From Acidipila sp. (GTDB taxonomy: Bacteria; Acidobacteriota; Terriglobia; Acidiferrales; UBA7541): DNA of 64,000 bases. The notes under the pieces were generated by a model that worked only from the letters and a program-made list of their open reading frames with translations, was not told where the DNA came from and made no database searches. Below are positions 13,348 through 31,864 of this stretch, in pieces; the first letter of the stretch is position 1; every line of letters begins with the position of its first letter. The stretch spans positions 1 to 64,000 of the forward strand of contig JAAFGT010000011.1 of NCBI GenBank assembly GCA_010365215.1, given 5' to 3'. Position numbers and translations under genes: made by a program.

Positions 13348-13376
13348 TTGACAAACTTTTGAAGCGAAAGTAAAAG
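13348..13376 (+). promoter_or_regulatory. Sigma70-type promoter of the TonB-receptor/GH2 operon
   Basis: There is a perfect -35 TTGACA at 13348-13353, a 17-bp spacer, and -10 TAAAAG at 13371-13376. Transcription would start near 13383 and leave a 5' leader of about 110 nt before the receptor ATG at 13495. Confidence 0.6.
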
Positions 13377-13494
13377 AAGATATCCGTAATAAAGCAAAAC
13401 ACCGGTTTTCGGGGGTCGATACCACCACCCATTCGCGCCGAGCGGGTCGCTACTTCCCATCTCAAGACTGCTCTACACTGTGAGGAATCTCATT

Positions 13495-16400
13495 ATGCAA
13501 AACTCGAATTGGCTCGGCAGACTCTCCCCTTGGGAGCCCACCGCAGTGCGCCTCACCAGCCGGGTGCCGGCGAATGACCAAATCGGAAGAAACCCACGCT
13601 TTCGAACGGTCCCCTTTTTTTTATGGGCGGGGTTATTTCTGTTGCTGGGCTCCGCGGGAGTAGCGCGGGCGCAGAAGGATGCCGGCGGCATTGCCGGCAC
13701 GGTGCGTGACGTCAGCGGCGCGGTGATACCCGCCGCAAATGTGTTCGTCCGCGACGCCGAACGCGGCACCACATTCACCACCGCAACGAACGCGTCCGGC
13801 GAATACGTCGCCAGCCCGCTCAAGGTGGGCCGCTACACCGTTACCGTGGAACATTCCGGGTTCAAGAAAGCTGTCTCCGTTGCCGTGGACCTGGACGTTC
13901 AACAGCGCATTGTGATCGATATGACGCTGCAGGTCGGAGATCTGGGCACCGAAACAGTTACAGTGCAGACGTCCACGCCGCTGCTGGACTCGGAAGTCTC
14001 CGGCCTCGGCGCCGTGGTAGAGAACAAAAGCATCCAAAACCTTCCGTTAAACGGACGTAACTTCGCTCAATTGGCGCTCACCGTTCCCGGCACCGTGCCC
14101 AGCGAACCGGGGTCGCGCGATGAACAGAGTTTTGGCTTCAGCTCCAACGGCGCGCGTTCCTTGCAAAACAATTTTCTGCTTGACGGGATCGACAACAATT
14201 CCAATCTTCCCGACTTGCTGAACGAAACCAACTACGTGATTCAGCCGGCGCTCGACGCACTCCAGGAATTCAAGGTGCAAACCAACGCGTATAGCGCGGA
14301 ATTCGGGCGCGGCAACGGCGCCATTATCAACGCCTCCATAAAATCGGGCACGAATAAATGGCACGGAAGCGTGTACGAGTATTTGAGGAACGAAAAGCTC
14401 GATGCGCGCAATGCCTTTGATCCGGCGCAGATTCCGCCGTACAAACAAAACCAGTTTGGCGTGACCTTCGGAGGGCCGGTTATCATTCCTCACGTTTACG
14501 ATGGACATAACCGGACTTTTTTCTTCGTGGACTATGCCGGCCTGCGCGTTCGCCAGGCGCAATCGGTGGCGTTGTTTGTACCCACCCCGGCGCAGGTGGC
14601 CGGCGATTTTTCCGCTTCCTTGACGGGCAGCCCCGCTTTTGCGGTGGATCCGACCACCGGGTTGCCGACCGCTCAAGTAGCGCTCGACTGCGCGGGACGC
14701 CCTACATTTGCCGGTGAAATCTTCAACACCCGGCTTACCCAGTCCTCGAATCTGAATCCCAATGGCTTTTGCGGCGTGCCCATTGGCGTGGACCTGGCGG
14801 GCAATCCGACGAATATCTTCCCTAATGCCGCCATCGATCCGTTGGGCTCGCGGCTGGCCATGCTCTACCCGGCGCCCAACGTTCTCAATGATCCCGCGCT
14901 GAATTTCAAGGCCTCTCCGGTTTTGCGGCAGACCCGCAACAATTTCGACGTGCGGCTGGACCACAAATTCTCAGATATGGATACATCGTTCGTGCGGTTC
15001 AGTTATGAAGACCAGCCCAGCGTGATTCCGGCCAGTTTCCCCGGCATCGGCGATGGCGGCGGATTTTTCAGCGGCGTCGAAGCGAATACTTACCATAGCC
15101 TCGCGCTCAGCGAAGTGCATATCTTCCGGCCCACTTTGATAAACGAATTCCGTTTTGGCTATAACCGCGCGCACTCGCAGCGGTTTAATTTCAACGCTGA
15201 CAAGGACATCTCCGCCCAGATCGGATTCCCTGGAGTGCCCTTCGGACCGATGATTGGAGGGCTTCCGCAATTGACGTTCAATGACGCTCCGACGCTGGGA
15301 AGCCCGACATTTCTTCCATCGTTGGAGATTCAGAACACGTACTCGCTATCGGACGACCTGACCTGGATTAAATCCAACCATACCGTGAAATTTGGGACGG
15401 AAATCCGCCACGAAGAATTCACGATATTTCAGCCGGCCGCCCCGCGCGGCATGCTGAGTTTCAGCAGTCAGTTTACAGACAATCCGGCATCGCCCGGGAG
15501 CGGGGGTTCGGGGCTGGCCTCCCTGCTGGCAGGGCTCACCGACGGCGGCAGCATCAACAACCTGCACAATATGGATTATTTTCGGCCTATCTATTCGTTT
15601 TACGCGCAGGACGATTGGAAAGTGACGCGCAACCTTACCCTCAACCTCGGATTGCGCTATGAATTATTCACTACCGTGAAAGAACGAAATAATCAGCAGG
15701 GCACATTTGACCTGAACCAGCCGCTGACTCCCACGATTGTTGTTCCCAAAGGACAGACCGCGCAGTTGACGCCCTGTTTGGCTACCGGCACTCCACCCTG
15801 TGCCATGTTACGGCTTAGCGCTACGGGCACTCGCGGGCTGATCAAGCCGGACCTCAACAACTTTGCACCGCGAATCGGCTTTGCCTACAAATTAACCGAG
15901 CGCACCGTGTTGCGCGGGGGCTACGGAGTTTTTTATGGTGGTCAGGAAAATGGCCCCTATTCAAACCCCAGTCCTGGATTCAATCCTCCTTTCTTCGCGG
16001 GCCAGTCGTTCAGTACCTCGTGCAGCGCAGCTTCCGCGAACCCTGCGGCGGGCGCGCTGGATTGTTCCGTTCCGGGCTTGAGTTCTCTCCAGCAGGGTTT
16101 CCCAGCCACTTCGCTCACCGACCCGAATACTCCGCTGCTGTTTTCGGTGGATCCGCAATTACGCACACCCTATTTGCAGCAGTGGCACCTCTCCGTGCAG
16201 CGCGAGTTGCCGGGAAATTCGATTGTTGAAATCACTTACGCCGGCTCCAAAGGCTCGGAACTATTCACGTTTTTCAACGGAAATCAGTCTACACCCACTG
16301 CGGATCCCGCTGCGCCTTCAGCGCCGCGACGTCCGGTGCCTGCGTTCGACGCACCCATCAACTGGTTCCGCTCCACTGGAATTTCAAATTACAACTCATT

Positions 16401-17145
16401 GCAAGTGCGCGCGGAAAAGCGCTTCTCGCGGGGCTTTTCGTTTCTGATGGCGTATACTTGGGCGCACTCCCTGGATATCGCGTCAAACAGCAATCTGGGC
16501 GCGCAGAACAATAGCGACTTTCGCGATCTGCGGTTTCCCATGCGCGAATACGGTAACTCCGATTTCGACGTGCGCCACCGCTTCGTCGTCAGCTATGTGT
16601 ATGAGCTCCCGTTTGGTCACGGGAAGCGCTGGCTGCAAAACGCGGGTTCGGTCGTGGACAAGATCGTGGGCGACTGGCAGTTGTCGGGGATAACCTCGAT
16701 CTCGACAGGAAACTATTTTACGGTGACCGATGGCAACGGAAATTTTTCGAACTCCGACGGGGGACCTTCGGGCGTATCGCAACGCCCCGACGTCATCGCA
16801 AACCCCCGCGCTACACCATGCGTCGCGGGCACTTTCTTCAACACCTGCGCTTTTGCCGATCCACCGCTGGGTTCATTCGGGAATGTAGGTAGAAATACGC
16901 TGCAAGGGCCGGGCTATCAAGTGTGGGACATGTCCCTGCTGAAAGTGTTCAGGATAGGTGAGAGCAAAGAGATTCAATTCCGCAGCGATTTCTTCAACCT
17001 GCCGAACCACACCAACAAGCTGCTGGCCAAGTCGGGCCCGCAACAGGGCAATAACAGCAGCGATCTGGGGAGCCCCAATTTTGGATTCCTGACTGCGGCC
17101 CGCCCGCCTCGCCAGATTCAATTCTCATTGCGGTTTGCATTTTAA
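13495..17145 (+). CDS. Oar-like TonB-dependent receptor with carboxypeptidase-regulatory domain
   Basis: The 1,216-residue outer-membrane protein has a signal peptide after a long polar n-region (hydrophobic core FFLWAGLFLLLGSAG, ending ARAQ near residue 62). A carboxypeptidase-regulatory Ig-like domain follows (about 66-155, GGIAGTVRDVSGAVIPAANV). Next are a plug (NLPLNGRNFAQLAL, then SFSSNGARSLQNNFLLDGIDNN) and a long beta-barrel ending in aromatic FSLRFAF. This is the Oar/SusC-like family that is greatly expanded in Acidobacteriota and imports oligosaccharides or other large ligands using TonB energy. ATG 13495 has GAGG 9 nt upstream. The next gene, 72 bp on, encodes a secreted GH2 enzyme, so its ligand is probably the matching oligosaccharide. 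No SusD-like lipoprotein is present. Confidence 0.93.
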   Translation: MQNSNWLGRLSPWEPTAVRLTSRVPANDQIGRNPRFRTVPFFLWAGLFLLLGSAGVARAQKDAGGIAGTVRDVSGAVIPAANVFVRDAERGTTFTTATNASGEYVASPLKVGRYTVTVEHSGFKKAVSVAVDLDVQQRIVIDMTLQVGDLGTETVTVQTSTPLLDSEVSGLGAVVENKSIQNLPLNGRNFAQLALTVPGTVPSEPGSRDEQSFGFSSNGARSLQNNFLLDGIDNNSNLPDLLNETNYVIQPALDALQEFKVQTNAYSAEFGRGNGAIINASIKSGTNKWHGSVYEYLRNEKLDARNAFDPAQIPPYKQNQFGVTFGGPVIIPHVYDGHNRTFFFVDYAGLRVRQAQSVALFVPTPAQVAGDFSASLTGSPAFAVDPTTGLPTAQVALDCAGRPTFAGEIFNTRLTQSSNLNPNGFCGVPIGVDLAGNPTNIFPNAAIDPLGSRLAMLYPAPNVLNDPALNFKASPVLRQTRNNFDVRLDHKFSDMDTSFVRFSYEDQPSVIPASFPGIGDGGGFFSGVEANTYHSLALSEVHIFRPTLINEFRFGYNRAHSQRFNFNADKDISAQIGFPGVPFGPMIGGLPQLTFNDAPTLGSPTFLPSLEIQNTYSLSDDLTWIKSNHTVKFGTEIRHEEFTIFQPAAPRGMLSFSSQFTDNPASPGSGGSGLASLLAGLTDGGSINNLHNMDYFRPIYSFYAQDDWKVTRNLTLNLGLRYELFTTVKERNNQQGTFDLNQPLTPTIVVPKGQTAQLTPCLATGTPPCAMLRLSATGTRGLIKPDLNNFAPRIGFAYKLTERTVLRGGYGVFYGGQENGPYSNPSPGFNPPFFAGQSFSTSCSAASANPAAGALDCSVPGLSSLQQGFPATSLTDPNTPLLFSVDPQLRTPYLQQWHLSVQRELPGNSIVEITYAGSKGSELFTFFNGNQSTPTADPAAPSAPRRPVPAFDAPINWFRSTGISNYNSLQVRAEKRFSRGFSFLMAYTWAHSLDIASNSNLGAQNNSDFRDLRFPMREYGNSDFDVRHRFVVSYVYELPFGHGKRWLQNAGSVVDKIVGDWQLSGITSISTGNYFTVTDGNGNFSNSDGGPSGVSQRPDVIANPRATPCVAGTFFNTCAFADPPLGSFGNVGRNTLQGPGYQVWDMSLLKVFRIGESKEIQFRSDFFNLPNHTNKLLAKSGPQQGNNSSDLGSPNFGFLTAARPPRQIQFSLRFAF

Positions 17146-17217
17146 CGGTAGCTGACTTCCTGGATTCTGGCTGGTGCGCACAGGGGCCGGTGCAGGTTCC
17201 GGCCCGATGGGAGAAAA

Positions 17218-19968
17218 ATGAAATTCGCCGTTCGGTTCGGGCTCGCAGGCATTCTGCTGATTTGCTTTGCAGCGTTCTCGGGGATGGCAGCGGCGAAAGA
17301 CGCGAGCAGCTTGATCGAACTGCGCTCGGACTGGCGGATGGCGCAGGTGAGCGAAACCTCTATCGATGGCGCGCTGGTGTCCGCGACGGCATTTGACGTC
17401 TCGAAGTGGTCCGTTATTCGGGACATGCCATCCACCGTTTTGCAAACTCTCGAAGATAATGGCGTGTACAAAAATCTGTACTACGGGATGAATCTCACCG
17501 CCATCCCTCCACGAGATTTATGGAAACACGATTGGTGGTATCGCACCACCTTCACGGCCCCGAAAGGACGCGAAGCTTATTCTATAATTTTTAAGGGAAT
17601 CAACTACCGCGCCGATATCTGGCTGAATGGCCAGAAAATAGCGGACCGCTCGCAAGTAGTGGGCATGTATAACAGCTTCGAATTTGATGTCTCGCAGTAC
17701 ATCAAGCCGGGCGGAAGCAATATCCTTGCCGTGAAGGTAACTCCGGAACAGCGCCTTCAGGACGTTAACGGCGTGGAACTGGCCGACAGCTGGCTGGATT
17801 GGATTAATTGGAAGTACATCGGGTACCGCGATCCCGAGAAGCACCAGGCCATCTCCTTTGTGCCGGACAGGAATGCCGGAATTTGGAAGCGAGTCTTTCT
17901 CAGCAGCACCGGGAAAGTGTCCATCCGTAATGCTTACGTCTCCAGCGATTTGCCACTGCCAGCCACTAGCCCCGCGGCTCTCACCGTGTACTGCGATCTG
18001 AAAAACTCCGCGGCGGATGCTGTTTCCGGAACTCTTCACGGGGAAATCTCGCGGTCCGGGAAGAAGTCCATCAACTTCGAACAAGCGGTGACTTTGTCGG
18101 GCAAGGAAACCAAGGAAATTGCCTTCACGCCCGGAGATTCGCCCGGGCTTTCCGTAAAGGACCCGGACCTTTGGTGGCCCTATCAATGGGGCCAGCCTGA
18201 CTTATATACATTGCAGTTGAGCTTCCAGACCAGCAGCGGCGTTTCCGACTTCTCGAACTCTGAGTTCGGCATCAGGAAAATTACCCAGCATCGCGATTCC
18301 GATAACTCTTTCCCCGCTCTCGGCAAAGACGGCAGCTTTTACATTCAGGTGAACGGGAAAGATTTTCTGATTCGCGGCGCCGCATACGCTCCTGACCTGC
18401 TATTCAAGCACGACCTGCATCGCGAGAGCGCCATCATGGCTTACGTAAAAGACCTGGGACTTAACCTGCTGCGTTGGGAGTCGAAAATATCGGACGACTC
18501 CATGCTCGAACTGGCCGACCATGAAGGCGTGCTCACCATGTTCGGGTGGATGTGCTGCGACCAGTGGGAGCATTGGAAGCAGTGGGACCAGGAAGATCAT
18601 CGCGTGGCGCGCGAAAGCCTGACCGCGCAGATCCATGAACTGCGGAGTCATGCTTCGGTGGCCATCTGGGCCAACGGCAGCGATGGCTTGCCGCCCGATG
18701 CGGTATTGGACGACTACAATCGCATTCTGCGTGAGCTGCACTGGCAAAACGCCATCGTGGATACCGTGTCGCACGTCAACAGCGCGTGGAGCGGGATCCA
18801 TATGGCCGGACCCTATTCGTGGAGGGCGCCTTACTATTGGTTCAACGAAAAGTTCGGCCCGGCCAGAGGCTCTTCGGCGGAGGAGGGGGATAACGAAATT
18901 ATCCCGCCGCTGGAGAGTCTCAAGAAGTTCATCCCCGCCGACAAGCTCTGGCCGATCAATGATTTCTGGTATTACCACGCAGGCGCAAATGAAGGCAACA
19001 GCACGCTCGTGAACATAAAACGCGCCATCGATGCGCGCTATGGGCCATCCAGCAGCGCCGCCGAGTTTTCCAAGAAGGCTCAACTGGCCCATTACGAGAG
19101 TGTCCGCGCACAATTCGAGACGTATGCGGCGAGCGGGTGGGCCAATCACAAGATGACCGTCTACTGGATGCTCGACAGCCACTGGCCATCTTTTTTTGGC
19201 CACCTGTTTGATTATTATTTAAAGCAGGGTGGCTCCTATTTTGGCGCCAAGAAGGCCCTGCGCCCCCTCAGCGTCGTTTATGATTATTACGCGAGCGGCG
19301 ATCGCAGCACCGCCAACATTTATGTCGTGAACCAGACTCCGGAAGCGCGCAGCCACCTGAGGGTGTCCGTGGCCGTTTACAACCTGGACGGAAGTCGCAA
19401 GAGCTCTTTCGAGGACGTGAAAGATTTCAGCATCACAGCCAGTACGTCATCGCGAGCGATGACTCTTCCCCGTATCGCTGACCTCTCTTCTACGTTTTTT
19501 GTGCGTTGCCAGCTTCGGGATGCCACCGACGCGCTGCTGGCCGATAACCTTTATTGGCAATCCACTACCGACGATGATCTGGGCGGCGTCAAGAACGACG
19601 AGCAGTTCACCGTGACTCAGACGAAGTGGGCCGACCTGACCGCGCTCAATTCCATGCCGCCCGCGGAAGTCAGTGTAGAAGGCAAGGTTGTTTCGCTGGC
19701 CGGCGGCGCTACTGCCAAGCTCACCATTAGAAATAATTCGAAGACCGTGGCGTTCTTCATGCGCGCGGAAGTCACCAAAGGGCCAGATGGTGAAGAGGTT
19801 TTGCCGGTCCTCTACAACGACAACTATGTGACGTTGTTCCCCAATGAGTCCGCCATCATTCAAGCGAGTTATAAAGTTTCTGACTTGAGCGGACAGCAGC
19901 CCGGATTTAGGGTAGAAGGATACAACGTAAAAAAGAACGTAAATAGCTTTGTGCCTTTGAAGCCCTAA
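17218..19968 (+). CDS. Secreted GH2 exo-beta-glucosaminidase-like glycosidase (CsxA subfamily)
   Basis: The 916-residue protein has a signal peptide (about 1-26), a GH2 sugar-binding jelly roll (W-WYR-TF, INYRADIWLNG), an Ig-like domain, a TIM barrel (about 360-690) and C-terminal beta domains. The usual GH2 acid/base motif N-E is replaced by WANGSD (484-489). The Asp489 variant matches the exo-beta-D-glucosaminidase CsxA subfamily, where Asp is the acid/base (Asp469 in CsxA, family knowledge). The nucleophile is probably Glu555 or Glu556 in SAEEGDNE. It would release terminal amino sugars from chitosan-like oligosaccharides in the periplasm or outside the cell. GGGAG 5 nt upstream supports the start. 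It is followed in the operon by amino-sugar-type intracellular enzymes. Confidence 0.85.
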   Translation: MKFAVRFGLAGILLICFAAFSGMAAAKDASSLIELRSDWRMAQVSETSIDGALVSATAFDVSKWSVIRDMPSTVLQTLEDNGVYKNLYYGMNLTAIPPRDLWKHDWWYRTTFTAPKGREAYSIIFKGINYRADIWLNGQKIADRSQVVGMYNSFEFDVSQYIKPGGSNILAVKVTPEQRLQDVNGVELADSWLDWINWKYIGYRDPEKHQAISFVPDRNAGIWKRVFLSSTGKVSIRNAYVSSDLPLPATSPAALTVYCDLKNSAADAVSGTLHGEISRSGKKSINFEQAVTLSGKETKEIAFTPGDSPGLSVKDPDLWWPYQWGQPDLYTLQLSFQTSSGVSDFSNSEFGIRKITQHRDSDNSFPALGKDGSFYIQVNGKDFLIRGAAYAPDLLFKHDLHRESAIMAYVKDLGLNLLRWESKISDDSMLELADHEGVLTMFGWMCCDQWEHWKQWDQEDHRVARESLTAQIHELRSHASVAIWANGSDGLPPDAVLDDYNRILRELHWQNAIVDTVSHVNSAWSGIHMAGPYSWRAPYYWFNEKFGPARGSSAEEGDNEIIPPLESLKKFIPADKLWPINDFWYYHAGANEGNSTLVNIKRAIDARYGPSSSAAEFSKKAQLAHYESVRAQFETYAASGWANHKMTVYWMLDSHWPSFFGHLFDYYLKQGGSYFGAKKALRPLSVVYDYYASGDRSTANIYVVNQTPEARSHLRVSVAVYNLDGSRKSSFEDVKDFSITASTSSRAMTLPRIADLSSTFFVRCQLRDATDALLADNLYWQSTTDDDLGGVKNDEQFTVTQTKWADLTALNSMPPAEVSVEGKVVSLAGGATAKLTIRNNSKTVAFFMRAEVTKGPDGEEVLPVLYNDNYVTLFPNESAIIQASYKVSDLSGQQPGFRVEGYNVKKNVNSFVPLKP

Positions 19969-20003
19969 ATGTCTGCGCATCGTTGATGTAACGCTTATTT
20001 CCT

Positions 20004-20948
20004 ATGTTCGTGTGTATCAGCCCAAATCCGGCGATCGACAAGCGCCTGCGCCTGAGCAAGCTCACGCCGGGCCGCGTGAATCGAGCGGCCAGTAGTACCG
20101 CCGCGCCGGGAGGAAAAGCCACACACGTGGCGATGGTTCTTCGCACGTTGGGAGCAGATCCTGTTTGGATCGGATTCTACGGCGGGGCAAGCGGCCGGGA
20201 GCTTCTTGAGGGGTTGCGTCTGCTGGGCGTCCGTGCGCAACCCATCCGGACGCTGCAGTGTACGCGTCTCAATTTCGAAATTATCGACGACGATGGAACG
20301 GTGACGGAGGTACTCGAGCCGGGCGCCTCGCCTTCCGAATCGGAAATTGCTTCGTTCGAGGAGACTTGTGAAAAGCAGTTCGCTCTCGGCACCAACCAGG
20401 CAATCGTCGTCGCCTCCGGCAGCCTGCCGCCCGGCATTCGGAATGATTTTTACGCTGCGCTGATTCAGCGCGCCCATGCGCATGGCTGTAAGTTGTTTCT
20501 GGACACCGGCGGGGAGGCGCTTCGTCAGGGACTCGCAGCCGGTCCCGATTTTGTAAAACCCAATCGCGAAGAGGCGGAATTGCTGACCGGAACCAAAATT
20601 GTGGACCGAGCTTCCGCGGTGGAGGCGATGCATCGTCTTTTCAATGCTGGCGCAAAAGGTGTTGCCATCAGCCTCGGTGCTGGGGGCGTGTACTGGTGCC
20701 CGGGGAAAGGACTGGAAATGTATTTCGCCGCCGCGATTCCGACCCCGGTGCGTTCCTCGGTGGGCTGCGGCGACGCCACGGTGGCGGCGTTCGCGTATGC
20801 TGCCGCTGCTACCTACAGTTCGGAAGAGACTCTGCGTCTGGCCGTCGCTTGCGGCGCGGCGAATACTCTGGCGCATTCGCCCGGAGCTGCAAGTCACGAA
20901 GATATCAGGAGATTCCAGAGGGAAGTCTGTGTGGAACGACTTTCCTGA
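20004..20948 (+). CDS. PfkB-family hexose-phosphate kinase (1-phosphofructokinase / tagatose-6-phosphate kinase type)
   Basis: The 314-residue protein is of the FruK/LacC type: an N-terminal SPNPAIDKRL, a substrate glycine loop (PGGKATHVAMVLRTLG), VASGSLPPG and KPNREEAELLTG. The catalytic base is Asp257 in SVGCGDATVAAF, a GCGD version of the usual GAGD. These kinases phosphorylate fructose-1-P, tagatose-6-P or fructose-6-P. Following a GH2 amino-sugar hydrolase and preceding an AgaS-like SIS protein, it would fit as the tagatose-6-P (or fructose-6-P) kinase at the end of an amino-sugar pathway (inference). It sits 35 bp after the GH2 gene and 9 bp before the regulator. Confidence 0.85.
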   Translation: MFVCISPNPAIDKRLRLSKLTPGRVNRAASSTAAPGGKATHVAMVLRTLGADPVWIGFYGGASGRELLEGLRLLGVRAQPIRTLQCTRLNFEIIDDDGTVTEVLEPGASPSESEIASFEETCEKQFALGTNQAIVVASGSLPPGIRNDFYAALIQRAHAHGCKLFLDTGGEALRQGLAAGPDFVKPNREEAELLTGTKIVDRASAVEAMHRLFNAGAKGVAISLGAGGVYWCPGKGLEMYFAAAIPTPVRSSVGCGDATVAAFAYAAAATYSSEETLRLAVACGAANTLAHSPGAASHEDIRRFQREVCVERLS

Positions 20949-20957
20949 GGCGCTCCC

Positions 20958-21719
20958 ATGCTAAGCGAAGAACGCAGGCGTGAAACTCTCGAGTTGCTCC
21001 AGAGCGAAGGTCGTGTGCTGGTACGCGACCTTTCGAAACTCTTTCGGACGTCGTTGATTACGATTCGCAAGGACCTCGAAGTCCTCCACCAGCAAGGCCG
21101 CCTGGAAAGAACGCACGGCGGCGCCCTACCTTTGCGCACCGGCGCGTTGCACGACCGTACGCTGCACGAAAAGGAGCGGCTGCATCGTCAGGAAAAACAT
21201 CGCATCGCTGCCGCTGCGGTGCGCATGATTCGCGCCGGGCAAGTGGTAATTCTTGACTCCGGCACGACGACCACCGCAATCGCCAGGGCCTGCCGCGCGT
21301 TTCGCAGCCTCACCATCATTACCAATGCCACGAATATCGCCGCGGAACTGGCCGGAACTTCGGTGGAGGTGATTCTCACCGGCGGCACCCTTCGCGCCAA
21401 TTCTTTTTCGCTGGTGGGGCCGCTGGCGGAGGAATCGTTGCGCCGCCTGAGTGCCGACATGCTGTTCCTGGCTGTCGACGGCTTCGATGTGCGGTTCGGC
21501 CTGACTACGCCCAACCTGCTGGAAGCGCGCGTCAACCGCGCCATGGCGGAAGCTGCGCGGCGCACCATCGTAGTTTGCGATTCCAGTAAGTTTGGACACC
21601 GCAGCCTTTCGCTGATCATGCCCACGTCAGCCGTGCACGAAACCATCACCGATCGCAACATCGCAAAAGTTCATTTGAAAGCGCTGCGGGAAGCAGATGT
21701 GGATGTAACCCTGGTCTAA
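20958..21719 (+). CDS. DeoR-family transcriptional regulator
   Basis: The 253-residue protein opens with the DeoR winged helix (MLSEERRRETLELLQSEGRVLVRDLSKLF) and has the TIRKDLEVLHQQGRLERTHGGA recognition region. The DeoRC sugar-phosphate sensor domain has ILDSGTTTTAIARAC, TNATNIAAEL, ILTGGTLR and FLAVDGFD. Such proteins repress sugar operons until a phosphorylated intermediate binds. It lies within the operon it probably controls, like AgaR in aga systems. It starts 9 bp after the kinase, and the SIS gene follows 23 bp later. No obvious operator repeat could be matched near 13380. Confidence 0.93.
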   Translation: MLSEERRRETLELLQSEGRVLVRDLSKLFRTSLITIRKDLEVLHQQGRLERTHGGALPLRTGALHDRTLHEKERLHRQEKHRIAAAAVRMIRAGQVVILDSGTTTTAIARACRAFRSLTIITNATNIAAELAGTSVEVILTGGTLRANSFSLVGPLAEESLRRLSADMLFLAVDGFDVRFGLTTPNLLEARVNRAMAEAARRTIVVCDSSKFGHRSLSLIMPTSAVHETITDRNIAKVHLKALREADVDVTLV

Positions 21720-21742
21720 ACCGCCGTCGAGGACATCGATCC

Positions 21743-22819
21743 ATGCACAGCACGCGAACATCGGAAGGGCATTCCTTCACACTGCGGGAAATCCTGTCGC
21801 AACCGCAGGTTTGGCGGGACACACTGAATGAATTGAACGCCAATCATTCCTTACAGATGGTTGGGGAGAAGACCGGTTCCGGTTCGCATTGGCTGTTCGT
21901 CGGCTGTGGCACCAGTTATTACCTGGCCGAGGCTGCGGCAGCCTCTTGGACGCTGCTGACCGGCCAACCCGCGCGCGCTCTGCCCGCTTCCGAGCTGTTG
22001 CTTTTTCCAGAGCTTACCCTCGCCCGATCCGCCGGATTGCAGGCGGTAATTATTTCCCGCTCGGGCAGCACTTCCGAAGCGGTGCGTGCGGCAAGGCTTC
22101 TCTCTCGCGAATATGGTGTCCCCACGCTGGGCCTCACCTGCGCTGCAAATTCGCCGCTTGCAGCTGAGTGCGTTGTGACCATCCGGCTTTCCACCGCCGA
22201 TGAACAGAGCGTGGTGATGACGCGCTCTTTCACCTCCATGCTGCTGGCGCTGCAGCAGCTGGCCGGACGGAAGAACGCCGAAAGCCCGTTTTCCGCGTCG
22301 CTCGAAAATATGCCCGGGCATTTCTCGAAGCAGATTCAAGCGCTGTCCAATCGTACGGAAGCTTTTGTGGCCGGCTGTAAAGTCGCCGATTATATCTTTC
22401 TGGGGCAGGGGCCGTTTCACGCGATTGCTCGCGAAGCCAGCTTGAAGATAACCGAGATGTCCTGCTCCTACAGTCAGGTTTATCACACGCTGGAATTTCG
22501 CCACGGCCCCAAGGCCATCGTCGTGCCGGAGGTCTGCCTCACCTTTTTCCTTAGTGAGAGTGGATATCAAGCGGAGGCCGAAGTTCTCAGCGAGATGAAA
22601 GAGCTGGGCGGGACGATTATCGCTGTTTGCAACCGGGCCAGCGAGAGCGTCAGGCGCTCCAGTGATTTCATTTTCGAGCTCGGCCTCGACGGTCCAGAAC
22701 TTGCGACCCTGGCTCCATTTGCGGTTTTTGCGCAGTTGTTGGGCTTCTATACGGGCATCAAGAAAGGTCTCAATCCCGACCAACCGCGAAATCTCAGCCG
22801 GGTCGTAATTCTGGATTGA
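21743..22819 (+). CDS. SIS-domain sugar isomerase/deaminase (AgaS / GlmS-C type)
   Basis: The 358-residue protein has two SIS domains. The first has FVGCGTSYYLAEAA and the phosphosugar-binding Ser run VIISRSGSTSEAVRA. The second has ITEMSCSYSQVYHTLEFRHGPKA, with the catalytic Glu and His region of the GlmS isomerase lineage. There is no glutaminase domain, so it is not glucosamine synthase. AgaS proteins deaminate galactosamine-6-P to tagatose-6-P, and relatives act on glucosamine-6-P. With two PfkB kinases and a DeoR regulator around it, an amino-sugar-6-phosphate deaminase is the best reading, but which epimer it acts on is open. Confidence 0.85.
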   Translation: MHSTRTSEGHSFTLREILSQPQVWRDTLNELNANHSLQMVGEKTGSGSHWLFVGCGTSYYLAEAAAASWTLLTGQPARALPASELLLFPELTLARSAGLQAVIISRSGSTSEAVRAARLLSREYGVPTLGLTCAANSPLAAECVVTIRLSTADEQSVVMTRSFTSMLLALQQLAGRKNAESPFSASLENMPGHFSKQIQALSNRTEAFVAGCKVADYIFLGQGPFHAIAREASLKITEMSCSYSQVYHTLEFRHGPKAIVVPEVCLTFFLSESGYQAEAEVLSEMKELGGTIIAVCNRASESVRRSSDFIFELGLDGPELATLAPFAVFAQLLGFYTGIKKGLNPDQPRNLSRVVILD

Positions 22820-22838
22820 GTTGGCTCCTGGAGGCGGT

Positions 22839-23798
22839 GTGCCGAATTTCGACGTCAGCGTGGTGGGCGAACTCAACCTTGATCTGATCTTTCATGGCCT
22901 GCCGCCGCAGCTCGAACTGGACGGGGAACATCTTGCCGAGGGTCTTACCGTCACTCTGGGCAGTTCTTCTGCCATCTTCGCCCACAATCTTGCGTTGCTC
23001 GGCAACAAAGTAGGATTCAGCTCTGCTGTTGGGGATGATGCCTTCGGCGAAATCTGCCTCCAGCGTCTTGGTGAGAGCGGCACGGACGTGTCGCGCGTCA
23101 GGCGGTTCCCGGGCAAACTCAGCGGGGTTACCGCGATTCTTCCTAGCGGGAAAAAGCGCTACATCCTTACCTACCCCGGCACGATGTTTACCATGAGCTA
23201 CGAAGATCTCGACCTGGATTACATATTTGGCGCAAAGCATTTTCATGTGTCGTCATATTTCCTGCAGCGCGCCCTGAGGCCTGCTCTGCCCACGCTATTC
23301 CGTCAGACACAGGAGGCCGGGCTTTCCACATCACTCGATACCAACGACGATCCCGAAGATCTTTGGGCCGCCGCTGATCTCGATCAAGTTCTGAAATATG
23401 TGGACGTATTCCTGCCCAATGCACATGAAGCCTGCAAGATCGCGCGCACGGACAATGTTCACCGCGCGGCGAAAATCATGTCAGAGAAGGTTCGCCTGGT
23501 GGTGATTAAGCGCGGAGCCCATGGCGCTCTGGCGCGCCGCGGCTCGGAAGTTTTTAGCGCCTCAGCCATTCCTGTCGACTTTGTCGATGCCATTGGCGCA
23601 GGCGACAGCTTCGATGCCGGCTTCCTTCACAGATATATTCGCGGGGCCAGAATCGAGGACTGTCTGCAATTCGGAAATATTGCCGGAGCTCTTTCCGCAA
23701 CGCGCGCCGGGGGAACCGCGGCCTTCCGGGATGCTGAGTACCGTGCGCGCTTTCTCAAGGAACGATTGGCGTCGCCTGGAGCAACAAGCTTCCCTTAA
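22839..23798 (+). CDS. PfkB-family carbohydrate kinase
   Basis: The 319-residue ribokinase-fold protein has VVGELNLDLIF at the N-terminus, a VTLGSSSAIFAHNLALLGNKV loop (Ser/Ala-rich where others have GG) and LPNAHEACKI. Signature 2 is DAIGAGDSFDAGFLHRY with the catalytic Asp. The GTG start has GGAGG 4 nt upstream; a TTG at 22821 directly after the SIS stop is an alternative. By elimination it would phosphorylate the imported free amino sugar (GlcN, GalN or an acetylated form), the step before the SIS deaminase; this is inference. Its last 44 nt overlap the convergent glycosidase gene. Confidence 0.84.
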   Translation: MPNFDVSVVGELNLDLIFHGLPPQLELDGEHLAEGLTVTLGSSSAIFAHNLALLGNKVGFSSAVGDDAFGEICLQRLGESGTDVSRVRRFPGKLSGVTAILPSGKKRYILTYPGTMFTMSYEDLDLDYIFGAKHFHVSSYFLQRALRPALPTLFRQTQEAGLSTSLDTNDDPEDLWAAADLDQVLKYVDVFLPNAHEACKIARTDNVHRAAKIMSEKVRLVVIKRGAHGALARRGSEVFSASAIPVDFVDAIGAGDSFDAGFLHRYIRGARIEDCLQFGNIAGALSATRAGGTAAFRDAEYRARFLKERLASPGATSFP

Positions 23799-26079
23799 AT
23801 TCTACGTTTAGCTTCGCCAGCGGTCCCGAGACCGTTCCATAATCTTTGTTGTTCACATAATCCATAACCTTATAGGGTTTGGGCTGCAGTCCGCGCAGCT
23901 CAATTTCTCCTTTCCACACCTCGGAGTTGCCCGGCCGGGCCTTGACGGTTTTCTCCGGCGCATAAAAGGCATAGAACATGCTCGCATTCTTTTCGATCGC
24001 GTAAGCCTCCGGGGAATCGTATCCATAAACGTAAAGATCGCGAAAATCGCCCTGCGAAAGCATTTTGCGATTATAAATATCGATCCATTTCTTCCACTGC
24101 GCTTCTTTGTTCGCGGTCAAGTAAACATTCTTAAATCGTGGGCCGTAATCCGGCCAGGTAAATTTCGTCCCCAGCACGCCGCCGGTTCCCAGCGTGGAGG
24201 CGAAGTCCTCTCCCAAATCCTGTTCTTTGTCGCCCACGCCGACGATTCGTGTGAGTTCCACGTGATCGCCATAGATGGCGGCGCGCGGGCCGAGAAGCCC
24301 CTTGTACATTTTAATCCGCCGCCGTACCTGCACCGCGCCCACCGGGTCGGCTGTGACCGCCTGGTCCATGTAGCGCAACCATGCCAGGCTGGGCGGCGTT
24401 CCGCAGGGGCAGCTCTGCGTGACGCTGTTGGGTTTCAACGCGCGCGTCGTTTCAAATATGGTTTTATAAACATCGCCCATCGCGTATACAGAATCTAAAG
24501 GTGACTTGTGATGATGCTTGGGGTTGTAACAGCGCGGGGTTCCGTAAATGTTGTCCAGCTTGTGGCCGTCAAGATCCCAGTCGCGGATAAATCGCTCGGT
24601 TAACTGCTTGTAGTAGGCCTGAACTTCCGGCACGGCCGGACAAAGCGTAGCAAGATTCCGGGTCATGCGCGCAGGCTTGCCGTCCTTGCCTAAGATCAAC
24701 CAATCCGGGTGTTGTTTCAGGACTTCGGAGACAACGTAATTGTGCCCGCCATAGCTGCGATGTCCGTCTTCGACCGCCAACGGCAGCCACCACAATTGCA
24801 GCTTGAATCCCTGCGCGTGAAAATCCTTCACCAACTTCTGTATCGCGTCCCCGGCAAAAGTATCCGTCCGCGGCTGCCAGTCGCCGTAATTATTGAACCA
24901 GCGGTCATCGAGCGTGGCCCAATGAATTCCCAGCTCTTTAAGCTTCGGAATGGTCTCCAGCATCTGCTTCGGGGTCACCTCGGATTCATATCCCCACCCG
25001 CACCAGCTCACCGCATAGTTTTCATCATTGTTCTTGGGCCGCGTCAGCCCTTCACGCTCGATCGCGTTCGACCAAACGGCCAGTGGCTCGTAATAATCGC
25101 CGTGATACACCGCCAGAAATGTGCGCGGAGTGGAATAAACCTCCCCAGGCTTTAGCGTGGTTTGCGCGGGAAAGCGAACACCCGCGTTGACGCGCCCGTC
25201 TTTGGCGGTTTGCACCGGGATCGACAGGCTCAGCGGCAGAGTCTCAATGTGTCCAATTGCTTCGCCTACATTTCGAGTCCAGAACGACACCACGGGTATG
25301 CCGCCGCCCACGCGTCCCAAATCTCCTCCGACCTCTACTTGTTCTCCGATCGGATTGTCCTGCGAAAACTTTGCCGGGATGGCCAGAACATCATCCTTTC
25401 CCCATTTCAAGCTTGAGCCGTGGAATGACCACATCTCATGCGGAGCGGTTCCGGTGTTGGCGATGGCGGCATTCAGGCGGTGGCTCTGCAGAAGAACGCT
25501 ATCGAGAGCCACATCTTTCGCTCCCGCATTGCGAAACGAAGCAGAGAGCAGCGCAAGCGCGGGAAAGTCGTCGTAAACCTCGAGTATCAGCGTCTCTTCG
25601 AGACCGCTACTGGCGCTGGCTCCGCGGACCTCCACACGCTGTCCCAACTTCCCGAGCTTCCCTTGCGCGGCTGTGACGTTTGCGCGCGCCACGTCGAACA
25701 CAAAATCGCTCGCTGGGCGGTGACCGATGATCACCTGTTGTCCCGTGTCGCTGCCCGGATCGTCCAGCGTGAGCATTTTCCCGTCGCTTTGCAGGCTGCC
25801 CTGCAAATAGCCCGACGGTCGCAGCACAAACTCTGCCGTTGGCGTCCGCAGATGTATGCCATCGGCATCGGTGTACACGCGAACGGACGATGTCGGGGCG
25901 GGCGGGAGGACGGTGGCCGCTGTCTGTGATTCCTTTTTGGCACCGCCTCCGCATTGCATAAGCCCCGCGACAAGCGCGAGCAGAAAAAAATTGCGCCCTG
26001 TCGAGCAAGGCAGATAACCATCCCGCATTTTCATTGCTCGGCGAACGCCAGCAGAGTTGATTTTCATGTGCTTATCCAT
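23755..26079 (-). CDS. Exported GH36-like alpha-glycosidase
   Basis: The 774-residue protein has an N-terminal hydrophobic segment with a Cys (FFLLALVAGLMQCGGG), possibly a lipoprotein although the lipobox is imperfect. A beta-sandwich domain (about 70-340) is followed by a TIM barrel. The barrel has VSWCGWGYE, WATLDDRWFNNYGDW, the strand motif DGHKLDNIYG with putative nucleophile Asp509, and SCPCGTPPS. This resembles GH36/GH27-clan alpha-galactosidases and alpha-N-acetylgalactosaminidases. The ATG at 26079 directly follows a 21-bp tandem repeat; ATGs at 26067 and further in are alternatives. It sits downstream of an APC permease and faces the amino-sugar operon. If it cleaves alpha-GalNAc or alpha-Gal, it favours a galactosamine reading of the locus. 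Confidence 0.78.
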   Translation of the reverse strand: MDKHMKINSAGVRRAMKMRDGYLPCSTGRNFFLLALVAGLMQCGGGAKKESQTAATVLPPAPTSSVRVYTDADGIHLRTPTAEFVLRPSGYLQGSLQSDGKMLTLDDPGSDTGQQVIIGHRPASDFVFDVARANVTAAQGKLGKLGQRVEVRGASASSGLEETLILEVYDDFPALALLSASFRNAGAKDVALDSVLLQSHRLNAAIANTGTAPHEMWSFHGSSLKWGKDDVLAIPAKFSQDNPIGEQVEVGGDLGRVGGGIPVVSFWTRNVGEAIGHIETLPLSLSIPVQTAKDGRVNAGVRFPAQTTLKPGEVYSTPRTFLAVYHGDYYEPLAVWSNAIEREGLTRPKNNDENYAVSWCGWGYESEVTPKQMLETIPKLKELGIHWATLDDRWFNNYGDWQPRTDTFAGDAIQKLVKDFHAQGFKLQLWWLPLAVEDGHRSYGGHNYVVSEVLKQHPDWLILGKDGKPARMTRNLATLCPAVPEVQAYYKQLTERFIRDWDLDGHKLDNIYGTPRCYNPKHHHKSPLDSVYAMGDVYKTIFETTRALKPNSVTQSCPCGTPPSLAWLRYMDQAVTADPVGAVQVRRRIKMYKGLLGPRAAIYGDHVELTRIVGVGDKEQDLGEDFASTLGTGGVLGTKFTWPDYGPRFKNVYLTANKEAQWKKWIDIYNRKMLSQGDFRDLYVYGYDSPEAYAIEKNASMFYAFYAPEKTVKARPGNSEVWKGEIELRGLQPKPYKVMDYVNNKDYGTVSGPLAKLNVEFKGSLLLQATPIVP

Positions 26080-26121
26080 TTCCTGTTGTCCTGTGTCCGG
26101 TTCCTATTGTCCTGTGTCCGG
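26080..26121. repeat. 21-bp tandem duplication at the permease/glycosidase junction
   Basis: Two adjacent 21-bp units (26080-26100 and 26101-26121) differ at one base. Read leftward, the first unit encodes the permease C-terminus PDTGQ and its TAG stop. In the second, the T of TAG is C, giving PDTGQQE and running in the same frame into the glycosidase ATG. The second unit also supplies the AGGA-like sequence before that ATG. Confidence 0.8.
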
Positions 26122-27468
26122 CGGGATCTCGAAATTGACCAGTTCGCGGCGAAACCCGCGAGTGCGCACGGCGCCGTAGCCGAATCCGAGTATCATCCAA
26201 GCCATCCCCAACAACTTCGCGCGCGAATTAAGATTCCACCACAGCAGCAGGCAGATTAGAAAGCCGGACGCGGGTGAAATCAGATCGATCAATCGTCTGG
26301 CTTGCGAACGAATGTAGTAGTGCATCAGCGCGGCCGCATTCACACCCATGAAGGCAATCAAGGCGCCGAAATTCAAAAGATCCACGCCGCGGGCGAAGTC
26401 GATGGTAAGCGCGCCCAGCAATGCCACCGCGCCCGAAAATATGACGTTGTTGCGGGGAATGCGCCGTTGGGGTTCGATCGCTCCAAAGAATTTCTTGGGA
26501 ATCACGTTGCCGCGCCCCATGCCGTAAAGCAGGCGCGCTGCGCCGATTTGCGAGCCCAAGCCTGAACCCACGGTGGCCACCAGTAAGGTTCCATTCACCA
26601 GCTGCAGCAGCCACGGCCCTCCGGCCAGGCCGGCCACGTGCACGAATGCGGTGTCTACGTCAGGAAACGGCCGGGCCACGGGCCAGACCAGCTGCGCCGC
26701 GTAAACCACGAACGCCGCCAGCACTCCGGTGGCCAGGCATACCAGCACGGTGGCCAGCAGAATATCGCGCTTGGGATTTTTTGATTCTTCCGAAAGTGTG
26801 GAGATTCCGTCGAAGCCGATGTAAGTGAGAACAGCAAGCGAAGTTCCACCCAGCACTGATTTCAATTCAAACCTGGCGGGATCGTAGAAAGGCCGCGTGA
26901 AAAAACCGGCCTCAGCATGCGCATGACCGAAAATGTAGCGCGCAGCCGCTACGAAGAACACTACGATCACCAGGCCCATAACCATCGCCAGCCCTTCGTT
27001 AATCCGCGCCGTCGTCTCGATTCCAAAAAGATTCAAGCCGGTAAACAGGCCGGCATAAAATATTACCCCGACGACGTAGGGCAGGCCCGGAGCAAAGTTG
27101 CGGGTGAATTGCGTGCACAGGATTGTGCAGATCAAAGGATTGAGCAGGTAGTTCATGACCATGCCCCAGCCGGTAACGAAGCCCCATGCAGGATGAATGG
27201 CGCGGCCCACATAAGTAAACGCCGAGCCCGCGCTGGGATAGGCTTGCGCCATGCGCCCGTAACTGATGGCCGTAAATAGCATCGCCACCATGGCGATGAG
27301 TATGGCCGTGACCACGTGTCCGCGAGCGCGGTCGCTCACTACACCGAACACCGGCATGGGCGCCGTGGGCGAGGTCACCACAATTCCGTAGAGCACCAGA
27401 TCCCATAAAGTCAAAGCGCGACGCAATCGCGGCGCGTTCTGGGGCAGAGTTATAGTTTCAGCAGGCAT
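26104..27468 (-). CDS. APC-superfamily permease
   Basis: The 454-residue protein has about 12 hydrophobic segments. The first carries LWDLVLYGIVVTSPTAPMPVFG, the unwound-helix region of amino acid/polyamine/organocation permeases. GRMAQAYPSAGSAFTYVGR and LTYIGFDGISTLSEESKNPKRDI are also typical of the superfamily. APC members usually import amino acids or amines by proton symport. In this locus it could carry an amine-bearing sugar, but that is speculation. It is upstream of the glycosidase on the same strand and in the same reading frame, separated only by its TAG stop within a tandem repeat. Confidence 0.88.
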   Translation of the reverse strand: MPAETITLPQNAPRLRRALTLWDLVLYGIVVTSPTAPMPVFGVVSDRARGHVVTAILIAMVAMLFTAISYGRMAQAYPSAGSAFTYVGRAIHPAWGFVTGWGMVMNYLLNPLICTILCTQFTRNFAPGLPYVVGVIFYAGLFTGLNLFGIETTARINEGLAMVMGLVIVVFFVAAARYIFGHAHAEAGFFTRPFYDPARFELKSVLGGTSLAVLTYIGFDGISTLSEESKNPKRDILLATVLVCLATGVLAAFVVYAAQLVWPVARPFPDVDTAFVHVAGLAGGPWLLQLVNGTLLVATVGSGLGSQIGAARLLYGMGRGNVIPKKFFGAIEPQRRIPRNNVIFSGAVALLGALTIDFARGVDLLNFGALIAFMGVNAAALMHYYIRSQARRLIDLISPASGFLICLLLWWNLNSRAKLLGMAWMILGFGYGAVRTRGFRRELVNFEIPPDTGQ

Positions 27469-29170: not shown

Positions 29171-31864
29171 CTATTCGAAGTTTTTGATCATCCAGATATC
29201 CCCTCCCTGCGGCCGGAAGCGGTCAAAGAGTACCCACTTGCCGTCGGGAGACCAGACCGGGTAGTCGATGCGGCTTTCCCCCTCGGGGAATTCGTACACC
29301 TTCACCGCTTTGCCGGTGACCACAGGTGATACCCAGAGCGTCTTGTGCCCCACTACATCCATGAGCAGCGAATTGTCAGGCGAGAACGACATGTGCGAAC
29401 CGCCGGCAATATCACTATTCAGTGGAACGGGCTCGCCGCCGCTGAGAGGCACCTCAAAAGTCTGTGGCTTTCCGCCACACGGGCACCGGAAAACTACCCG
29501 CGTTCCATCGCGCGACCAGCGCAGGAAATGTCCCGTAACTCCGGTCTTGGTCAGTTGACGTTGATCGCGACCATCAGACTTCATCGCCCAGACTTCCAGC
29601 CTTCCGCTTCGATCGGATTGAAAAGCAATGTTGGCGCCATCCGGTGAAAAGAAGGGATTGATGTCCAGCGCGGGATCTGAAGTCAAATGCTTCAGGGACC
29701 TGGTGGCCAAGTCCATCAGCCAGATATCCGCGTTTCCCGCGCGGGAAGAGAAAAATACCAATCCTTTGCCGTCAGCTGACCATTGCGGCTGAAAGTCCCC
29801 GCCCGGTCCCGTGGTCATTTGCCGGTTCGAACTGTCCAGCAGGGAATGTATGTAGATGTTCATCTCCCCGGTTCGATCGGAATTGAATGCGATTTGTGTG
29901 GCATCGGGCGACCACGCGCCTCGACTGTCTTCGCGCGTGCTGGCCACAACCTCCTCAGGATCGCCGGTGGCCACGCCCGTCTGTGCGGAGACCGGCAAAC
30001 GCCAAAGGTCGGCGTTCTGCCGCAAGATGGCAAATACCATCTGTTCGCCGCTGGGGGAGATCGCCAGCTGCACGTCCTGGCCCGAGCCTACGGTCACCTG
30101 CTGCGCGGCGCCGGTGGGATCACTCTTCTCCGAAACTCCGATCCGCCAGATGTTATAGCCGCCACCCCGGTCCGACGTGAAGTAGATGTATTTCCCGGAA
30201 CGCGACCAGGTTGGATTCAGGTCATGGAATCGTCCGTCGGTCAGCGTGGTTACGGTGCGCGTCGCCACATTGACCACTTTTGTGCTGAACTTCGTGCGTT
30301 CATGATCCTGAAAAACGATCCTCTTCCCGTCCGGAGACCAGTTCGGTTCCAAGTGATCCACCGCTTCGGAACTGTCTGAGGTAAGCTGCTGCGGGTTGTG
30401 TCCTTGCGCATCCACGATCCATATGCGCCGAGGGCCCGCCCACGATGCATCGATGGCCAACATCTTGCCATCGGGAGAGAACGATGGATTGAAGCCGTTA
30501 TCCAAAAACTTCTCTTCCTTGCCGGAGCCCAGGTCCTTCCTCCAGATGTCCCCGCCGTCATATTGGCCGAACACATCTCCCGGTTCCAGTTTTCCGCGGG
30601 ATTGATTGGAGCGAACAAATAAGATGCCCTGGCCATCGGGCGTCCACTTTGCCTGGATGTCGTCCCAGTTCCCCGTGGTCAACTGCTGCGGGTCTCCCTG
30701 AAGCGCCATTACAAAAATCTTCTTGAAACCATTTACTTCCTTGCTGTACACAATGCGTTTTCCGTCCGGAGCCCAGGCGGGGAATTCGTGGAGGCCTTCC
30801 GTGGTGGTGAACTGGACCAATTTGGGGGCCGCGGGTGAGCCCGTCGCGTTTCCACTGAACCCTTTGCGCAGAAAATAGCCGGTCAGGAGCACAGCGAGGA
30901 TGGTTACAAGCGTCCACAACGCCTTACCGCTGCGGGTCGGCGGTTGCGCGACAACCGTCACTCCCGCTACCGCGCCCGATTCGAACTCGCGCCGCAAGCG
31001 TTTGAGATCGGCATTCAGTTCCGCGGCGCTTTGACAGCGCAATTCACGGCTCTTTTCCAGCGATTTGCTTATGATTTCTTGCAACTTGGGATGCAGGCCG
31101 TGTTTCACCTCTCCGGGTGGAACAGGGGATTTGTTAATAATCTCGTTGAGGATCGCGGCGGAGGTCGGGCCTTGGAAGGGCAGCGCTCCTGTGGACATTT
31201 CGTACAGCACCACACCGAGTGAGAACAAGTCGGTGCGGGCATCGAGCTCCTGGCCGAGCGCCTGTTCGGGCGACATGTAGGCCACGGTACCGAGTGCCAT
31301 GCCCGGGCTGGTCAACTGGTCGTTATCCACTCCCGGCATGGTGATACCGTCGTTCTTGATCTCCGCGCTCCCGCCTGAAGTCACCTTGGCCAGGCCGAAA
31401 TCCAGAATCTTTGCGTGACCGCGCTCGGTGACGAAGATGTTCGCGGGCTTGATGTCCCGATGAATAATTCCCTTGGTGTGTGCGGCATCGAGTGCGTCGG
31501 TTAATTCGATGGCCACGTCCAGTAGACGTTTGAGTTCCATGGGGCGGCCCGCGATGATGTGTTTCAGCGTTGCGCCGTCCAGGCACTCCATGGCAATGAA
31601 TGCCTTGCCCCCTTCTTCGCCAACATCGTAAATCGTGCAGATATTGGGATGGTTCAGCGCCGAGGCAGCCAGCGCCTCACGTCGGAAGCGGCCCAGTGCT
31701 TGGGGGTCATGAGCCACTGCGTCCGGCAGAAATTTGAGCGCGACAAAGCGATGCAGGCGGCTGTCTTCGGCCTTGTAAATTACACCCATCCCGCCACTGC
31801 CGAGCTTCTCAATAATGCTGTAGTGGGAGATGGTCTGGCCGATGAGGGATGAGGAATCCGCCAT
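29171..31864 (-). CDS. Ser/Thr protein kinase fused to TolB-like beta-propeller
   Basis: The 897-residue protein starts with a Hanks-type kinase domain (about 14-285). It has the glycine loop GSGGMG (22-27), Lys44 in VALKF, HRDIKPAN with catalytic Asp137, DFG at 155-157 and YMSPEQ. One membrane helix follows (about 310-330, LWTLVTILAVLLTGYFL). An extracytoplasmic TolB/WD40-type propeller then has many PDGKRIVY / SPDGKMLAI / SADGKGLVF repeats. The kinase would sit in the cytosol and the propeller in the periplasm as sensor or scaffold. This architecture is common in Acidobacteriota. A strong promoter places the transcript start only about 3 nt before the ATG. Confidence 0.94.
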   Translation of the reverse strand: MADSSSLIGQTISHYSIIEKLGSGGMGVIYKAEDSRLHRFVALKFLPDAVAHDPQALGRFRREALAASALNHPNICTIYDVGEEGGKAFIAMECLDGATLKHIIAGRPMELKRLLDVAIELTDALDAAHTKGIIHRDIKPANIFVTERGHAKILDFGLAKVTSGGSAEIKNDGITMPGVDNDQLTSPGMALGTVAYMSPEQALGQELDARTDLFSLGVVLYEMSTGALPFQGPTSAAILNEIINKSPVPPGEVKHGLHPKLQEIISKSLEKSRELRCQSAAELNADLKRLRREFESGAVAGVTVVAQPPTRSGKALWTLVTILAVLLTGYFLRKGFSGNATGSPAAPKLVQFTTTEGLHEFPAWAPDGKRIVYSKEVNGFKKIFVMALQGDPQQLTTGNWDDIQAKWTPDGQGILFVRSNQSRGKLEPGDVFGQYDGGDIWRKDLGSGKEEKFLDNGFNPSFSPDGKMLAIDASWAGPRRIWIVDAQGHNPQQLTSDSSEAVDHLEPNWSPDGKRIVFQDHERTKFSTKVVNVATRTVTTLTDGRFHDLNPTWSRSGKYIYFTSDRGGGYNIWRIGVSEKSDPTGAAQQVTVGSGQDVQLAISPSGEQMVFAILRQNADLWRLPVSAQTGVATGDPEEVVASTREDSRGAWSPDATQIAFNSDRTGEMNIYIHSLLDSSNRQMTTGPGGDFQPQWSADGKGLVFFSSRAGNADIWLMDLATRSLKHLTSDPALDINPFFSPDGANIAFQSDRSGRLEVWAMKSDGRDQRQLTKTGVTGHFLRWSRDGTRVVFRCPCGGKPQTFEVPLSGGEPVPLNSDIAGGSHMSFSPDNSLLMDVVGHKTLWVSPVVTGKAVKVYEFPEGESRIDYPVWSPDGKWVLFDRFRPQGGDIWMIKNFE

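Follow-up and report, generated by a model that had tools for sequence, protein, structure and literature searches.

A predicted galactosamine-scavenging locus with non-phosphotransferase first steps in Acidipila sp. (Acidobacteriota)

We analysed a window of 64,000 nucleotides from Acidipila sp. (assembly GCA_010365215.1, contig JAAFGT010000011.1, positions 1 to 64,000), in which eight genes between positions 13,348 and 27,468 probably constitute a scavenging system for D-galactosamine (GalN): the amino sugar would be clipped from glycans, imported and burned via the tagatose route. GalN catabolism with first steps independent of a phosphotransferase system (PTS) is best read as the aga/gam pathway in a new, non-PTS form. 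The evidence consists of homology, synteny, operator conservation and catalytic residues, all obtained by computation. Statements on the host genome (G000; 4.1 Mb, 91 contigs) refer to sequence and profile searches of its contigs, and the family set comprises 89 genomes.

The eight genes form two converging operons, and the initial annotation, which had described six rightward genes facing a GH36 and an APC gene, is borne out for all eight in both place and family. The gaps between the plus-strand genes are, in gene order, 72, 35, 9, 23 and 1 bp. On the minus strand the order is APC then GH36, with 24 bp between them, and the GH36 and PfkB2 genes overlap tail to tail by 44 bp. The features of the locus are:

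13348 to 13353, plus strand: TTGACA, a -35-like hexamer of the six-gene operon, by direct reading
13362 to 13378, minus strand: predicted AgaR operator TTCTTTTACTTTCGCTT, following closely on the -35-like hexamer
13480 to 17145, plus strand: Oar-type TonB-dependent outer-membrane receptor (Pfam OMP_b-brl_4, 835 bits; CarboxypepD_reg)
17218 to 19968, plus strand: secreted GH2 of CsxA/GH2_16 type, divergent clade (CsxA, 406 bits); proposed exo-beta-hexosaminidase
20004 to 20948, plus strand: LacC/FruK-type hexose kinase (TIGR03168, 268 bits, above cut-off); proposed tagatose-6-phosphate kinase
20958 to 21719, plus strand: DeoR-family repressor AgaR (NCBIfam AgaR equivalog, 263 bits, cut-off 260)
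21743 to 22819, plus strand: SIS-domain protein; proposed galactosamine-6-phosphate deaminase/isomerase
22821 to 23798, plus strand: PfkB-family kinase, PfkB2 (Pfam PfkB, 155 bits); proposed galactosamine 6-kinase
23755 to 26079, minus strand: GH36, predicted alpha-galactosaminidase and probable lipoprotein (FpGalNase structures 9awt/8x1b, 228-234 bits)
26104 to 27468, minus strand: APC-superfamily permease (Pfam AA_permease, 125 bits); proposed galactosamine importer

We propose the following route. The Oar-type receptor would take GalN-bearing oligosaccharides into the periplasm, where the GH36 lipoprotein would cut non-reducing alpha-GalN and the GH2 would act on glycans of the same kind, releasing a non-acetylated hexosamine in beta linkage. 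Free GalN would enter the cytoplasm through the APC permease, PfkB2 would convert it to GalN-6-phosphate, and the SIS protein would deaminate and isomerise this to tagatose-6-phosphate, releasing ammonia. The LacC-type kinase would then form tagatose-1,6-bisphosphate, which a class I aldolase of LacD type would split to triose phosphates; the aldolase gene lies within the operon in ten relatives and at another place in this genome. AgaR would repress the operon via the CTTTTACTTTCG operator overlapping its promoter.

A search of a genome collection for the GH36 yielded 58 loci, of which 54 lie in Acidobacteriota records. The most conserved partner is PfkB2 (31 of the 58 loci), followed by AgaR (28), the SIS protein (24) and the LacC-type kinase (16); in 24 loci PfkB2 adjoins GH36 and is convergent with it. 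Within the family set, SIS and GH36 are both present in 17 of the 89 genomes, with SIS alone in 2 and GH36 alone in 7 (Fisher p = 6e-11). This gene arrangement is not chance. On the synteny check suggested with the initial annotation, conservation is strong among the kinases, SIS and GH36; that of the GH2 is sparse but specific. In 11 GH36 loci without PfkB2 or SIS (L059, L060, L064, L067-L070, L072, L074, L079 and L085), a NagB-like (NagB/AgaI-like) deaminase, another PfkB and a LacI regulator are found instead, and in no stretch seen does this set occur together with the SIS/PfkB2/AgaR set. In the isolate Acidobacteriaceae bacterium KBS 96, GH36-AgaR is followed downstream by a relative of the NagX-like membrane glucosamine N-acetyltransferases (L087:14629-15858), whose score of 110 bits falls under the model cut-off.

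The GH36 protein is most likely an alpha-galactosaminidase, its activity on alpha-GalN being predicted by homology. FpGalNase of Flavonifractor plautii acts on de-acetylated blood group A antigen, from which it cleaves GalN. In GH36 galactosidases, a pair of adjacent aspartates (the DD pair) binds O4/O6. The best solved relatives of the window protein are the two FpGalNase structures (234 and 228 bits), while other alpha-galactosidases reach at most 48 bits. The active site of FpGalNase comprises W317, D346, D347, W387, K461, D463, Y464, C513 and D532 (PMC11762096). Eight of these nine residues are kept in the window GH36, as W362, D391, D392, W430, K507, D509 (nucleophile), C559 (the specificity-linked Cys) and D578 (acid/base), and most of the kept residues are invariant among the 66 relatives compared. 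The likeness to FpGalNase extends to the catalytic Asp pair, Lys, Trp and Cys; the window differs in the ninth residue, in having no deacetylase partner and in coming from soil rather than gut. The window genome also encodes a second GH36 of the same group (L102; G000:C64:26650-28710), 44% identical and without kinase or SIS partners.

The partners of the LacC-type kinase point to the sugar configuration. In 10 of the 58 loci, a LacD-type tagatose-bisphosphate aldolase (434 bits, cut-off 184) follows this kinase directly, and in ten family genomes LacD and SIS are no more than about 3 kb apart. LacC and LacD after a SIS deaminase are the enzyme set of the GalN/N-acetylgalactosamine (GalNAc) pathway as reviewed (PMC12118421), and the enterococcal aga locus, with the order SIS-LacD-LacC-PTS, has the same set. 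LacC and LacD imply a tagatose intermediate and hence the galacto configuration with a 6-phosphate; they are hard to explain for glucosamine (GlcN), since a fructose-6-phosphate product needs no tagatose aldolase. The kinase itself belongs to the TIGR03168 subfamily and scores 115 bits against the LacC equivalog (cut-off 410). PfkB2 reaches no NCBIfam equivalog, and a profile search against the PDB returned YdjH and ribokinase-like kinases, which is uninformative as to substrate. We infer that PfkB2 is a GalN kinase and that the LacC-type kinase prefers tagatose-6-phosphate.

The SIS protein does not group with non-amino-sugar isomerases, an outcome named in advance as one that would undo the amino-sugar reading; yet it is not an AgaS orthologue. 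Its best scores (GlmD 137 bits, GlmS 126, AgaS 115) are all below cut-off, which is 580 for GlmD and 529 for AgaS (TIGR02815; E. faecium AgaS itself scores 424). It shares the fold and the active-site Glu and His of GlmS and of the GlmD/NagB-II deaminases, but has Arg at their C-terminal Lys position, as does AgaS. In five loci with the same GH36, PfkB2 and AgaR neighbourhood (L036, L037, L045, L076 and L087), the slot is filled by an AgaS-family protein. These proteins cluster with E. coli and E. faecium AgaS (support 100/100), and the three tested score 227-302 bits against the AgaS model. Such swaps support the same function for the window SIS, which would convert GalN-6-phosphate to tagatose-6-phosphate.

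The regulator narrowly exceeds the cut-off of the AgaR equivalog NF040755 (263.2 bits versus 260), and an AgaR-like operator is predicted to overlap the operon promoter. Its core, CTTTTACTTTCG, occurs once in the window, and the exact core is also found upstream of operons in L049, L054 and L062. Allowing up to one mismatch, 14 of the 87 upstream regions taken from related loci contain it, versus 0.15 in shuffles; some of these regions are common to divergent genes, so that the 14 amount to about 10 distinct intergenic stretches. The 11-base core is missing from the NagB-type, SIS-B (see below) and other GH36 loci, and the E. coli agaS promoter has a similar CTTTTTCTTTCGTTTTG. A generic sigma-70 scan made no call of the TTGACA hexamer at 13348. 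Together with LacD, the canonical AgaS swaps and the kinship to FpGalNase, this box backs the galactosamine branch of the initial annotation, which had been drawn from an AgaS-like SIS protein, a LacC-type kinase, a DeoR regulator and the GH36.

Several observations weigh against assigning the locus to GalN. The window SIS falls within a clade of operonic relatives (support 98/100) outside the AgaS clade, and is slightly nearer to GlmD than to AgaS. In the GH36, Y464 of FpGalNase is replaced by Asn. The LacC-type kinase lies outside the LacC clade on long branches, so that a role as 6- or 1-phosphofructokinase is possible. The window operon contains no aldolase, and the LacD of this genome (C10:30913), which we take to serve the last step of the pathway, lies outside the locus. 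It may instead serve glycolysis, because its separate clade is the lone copy in other genera; a class II fructose-bisphosphate aldolase (PF01116) was not found in the window genome, while class I (PF00274) was not searched for. Finally, an AgaR box was looked for before the APC-GH36 operon and none was found.

The GH2 is 34% identical to CsxA, a GH2_16 exo-beta-D-glucosaminidase, at 406 bits, and a grouping with beta-mannosidases is ruled out (94 bits for the best of them). GH2_16 enzymes are marked by SD replacing NE and by Glu replacing His (PMC12243196). The window protein carries these marks (S488-D489 and E421) as well as the nucleophile E555 and the domain set of CsxA including Ig_GlcNase, and amine recognition is probably kept. 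The initial annotation's pointer to glucosamine (chitosan-like) ends is nevertheless weakened, as the GH2 belongs to a side clade tied to galactosamine loci. Clade members (57-63% identity) are found in G030, G035, G004 and L062, each near GH36, and close relatives occur only beside GH36/AgaS/AgaR loci. The clade has changes at positions that are invariant in CsxA and five canonical relatives (L393W, Y518W, V519R, F538S, S543G, G545N and W653G, CsxA numbering), beside catalytic residues, with L393W adjoining the amine-binding Glu. We propose that the window GH2 need not be a chitosan enzyme and is a candidate exo-beta-hexosaminidase for non-acetylated hexosamine, possibly galactosamine.

Ordinary CsxA-like GH2 enzymes appear in another context. 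Five family genomes (L108, L110, L112, L114 and L119) have a second cluster, in which a paralogous SIS (SIS-B) is accompanied by a LacI regulator and an APC permease. Three of the five clusters also adjoin an ordinary CsxA-like GH2, and neither LacC nor LacD is present in the stretch seen. This second cluster is likely a GlcN/chitosan system. By E-value, SIS-B had been a candidate orthologue of the window SIS; tree and neighbours rule this out and identify it as part of a paralogous, LacI-linked system. A canonical CsxA-like GH2 is also encoded in the window genome, close to a LacI gene (L140). One could still read the window locus as a glucosamine/chitosan system, in which the GH2 frees beta-GlcN, PfkB2 forms GlcN-6-phosphate, the GlmD-like SIS yields fructose-6-phosphate and the LacC/FruK-like kinase is a 6-phosphofructokinase. 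The closeness of the GH2 to CsxA, including the SD motif and the Glu that binds the amine, and the higher GlmD than AgaS score of the SIS would suit this, as would the kinase, whose TIGR03168 subfamily also spans FruK/PfkB. We nevertheless consider it unlikely, given the FpGalNase-like GH36, the LacD and AgaR partners, the AgaS-family swaps, the departures of the GH2 clade near the active site and the separate setting of canonical CsxA-like enzymes, both in related genomes and in this one. The two substrate readings are largely separable, and GalN is favoured over glucosamine.

The target might also be a different amino sugar, such as a 2-amino sugar of 6-deoxy or other type, or a heteroglycan containing both GlcN and GalN, handled by relaxed or tuned enzymes; this is less probable again. 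The Asn in place of Y464, the altered GH2 pocket and the existence of GH36 relatives with different first-step modules (the 11 NagB-type loci) would agree with such a target, and a subgroup of GH36 relatives, not mapped to the NagB-type loci, has the second aspartate of the DD pair replaced by Ala or another residue. However, the GH36 group of the window retains both Asp, like FpGalNase, and the tagatose intermediate implied by LacC and LacD points to the galacto configuration and a 6-phosphate.

Relatives of the APC permease (43-62% identical, mostly about 60%) adjoin the amino-sugar SIS genes of both the galactosamine and the SIS-B systems, which fits transport of free, protonated hexosamine; GalN is the substrate that we infer here. 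Since FrlA, FrlD and FrlB belong to the same three families as the permease, PfkB2 and the SIS protein, catabolism of Amadori products, with an APC permease, a PfkB kinase and a SIS deglycase as in frlABD, was weighed as well. Scores are far below the model cut-offs (FrlB 28.7 bits versus 430, FrlD 79 versus 247, FrlA 26 versus 800), no row of the SIS tree is more distant than FrlB, and GH36, GH2, AgaR, LacC and LacD would be left unexplained. Model scores and tree effectively refute this fructoselysine-type reading, to which we give almost no credence.

The closest known system is the aga/gam pathway, by which E. coli, enterococci and Shewanella use GalNAc and GalN (AgaS, LacC or AgaZ, LacD or KbaY, AgaR). 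Both have a DeoR-type AgaR (as in E. coli) with a similar operator, a slot for a GalN-6-phosphate deaminase/isomerase (AgaS itself in five relatives of the window locus), a LacC-type kinase and, in relatives, LacD. The window locus differs in co-encoding GH36, GH2 and the Oar receptor, in a SIS protein nearer to GlmD than to AgaS, and in having neither a deacetylase nor a PTS. We propose that the first steps fall to the PfkB kinase and the APC permease; in Shewanella these are carried out by AgaP/AgaK (PMC12118421). That NagA (N-acetylglucosamine-6-phosphate deacetylase) and PTS are absent, as the initial annotation had it, holds at the locus: no PTS genes are among the locus proteins, and no mannose-type PTS EIIC (EII-Sor) was found in the genome. 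For NagA it does not hold genome-wide, as one copy lies elsewhere (G000:C11:1814-2965; 319 bits, cut-off 226).

Regarding the natural polymer, non-acetylated alpha-GalN is present in fungal galactosaminogalactan and in Pel. A bolder extension, which we regard as possible but doubtful, makes the GH2 clade an exo-beta-galactosaminidase that arose from glucosaminidases of CsxA type, and has the whole locus serve soil polymers of galactosamine that are partly de-N-acetylated (galactosaminogalactan of fungi or Pel-type exopolysaccharide of bacteria). GalN would then be taken up by an APC-type permease and phosphorylated by a PfkB kinase, and the GH36 of relatives would act together with a secreted amidohydrolase that first removes the N-acetyl group of GalNAc, in the manner of FpGalNAcDeAc and FpGalNase. 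In 19 of the 58 loci (e.g., L036:8688-9893), none of them the window, the gene immediately upstream of GH36 and in the same orientation encodes a secreted amidohydrolase (PF04909), which was not found in the window genome at E 1e-40. This amidohydrolase has no sequence match in the PDB; its AlphaFold model (predicted local distance difference test score 78) is nearest to uncharacterised amidohydrolases and decarboxylases, with a target-normalised template-modelling score of about 0.65 at best. This protein could be an extracytoplasmic N-deacetylase or another accessory hydrolase. The GH114 endo-galactosaminidase (PF03537) is found in one of the 89 family genomes and not in the window genome (GH135, GH166 and GH191 were not searched for); the match (G019:C41:4081-4734, 302 bits) is in a genome that also has an FpGalNase-like GH36.

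The locus predicts a complete PTS-free galactosamine pathway in uncultured, abundant soil Acidobacteriota. We found no earlier description of GalN catabolism in this phylum in the literature searched, which is not proof of absence, and to our knowledge neither a PfkB GalN kinase nor an APC-type GalN permease has been described. Testable roles are given to the PfkB kinase, the APC permease, the GlmD-like SIS protein and a GH2 clade, which databases would label as chitosan enzymes or generic. The 66 GH36 sequences compared provide a deep collection of natural FpGalNase-like enzymes; this family has practical interest in blood group A conversion. If the substrate is fungal galactosaminogalactan or Pel, this would be one of few known soil turnover routes for such biofilm polymers.

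Two further observations concern neighbouring genes. An alpha-galactosidase-like GH36 adjoins the clade GH2 in G030, G035 and G004; TmGalA-like GH36 alpha-galactosidases adjoining the GH2 clade or near core genes are found at L035:3559-6072 (with a C-terminal PKD domain), L141-L143 and L116, and their combination with an alpha-galactosaminidase would suit an alpha-Gal/GalN polymer such as galactosaminogalactan. Outside the locus, positions 29171-31864 of the window encode a Ser/Thr protein kinase fused to a PD40 (WD40-like) beta-propeller.

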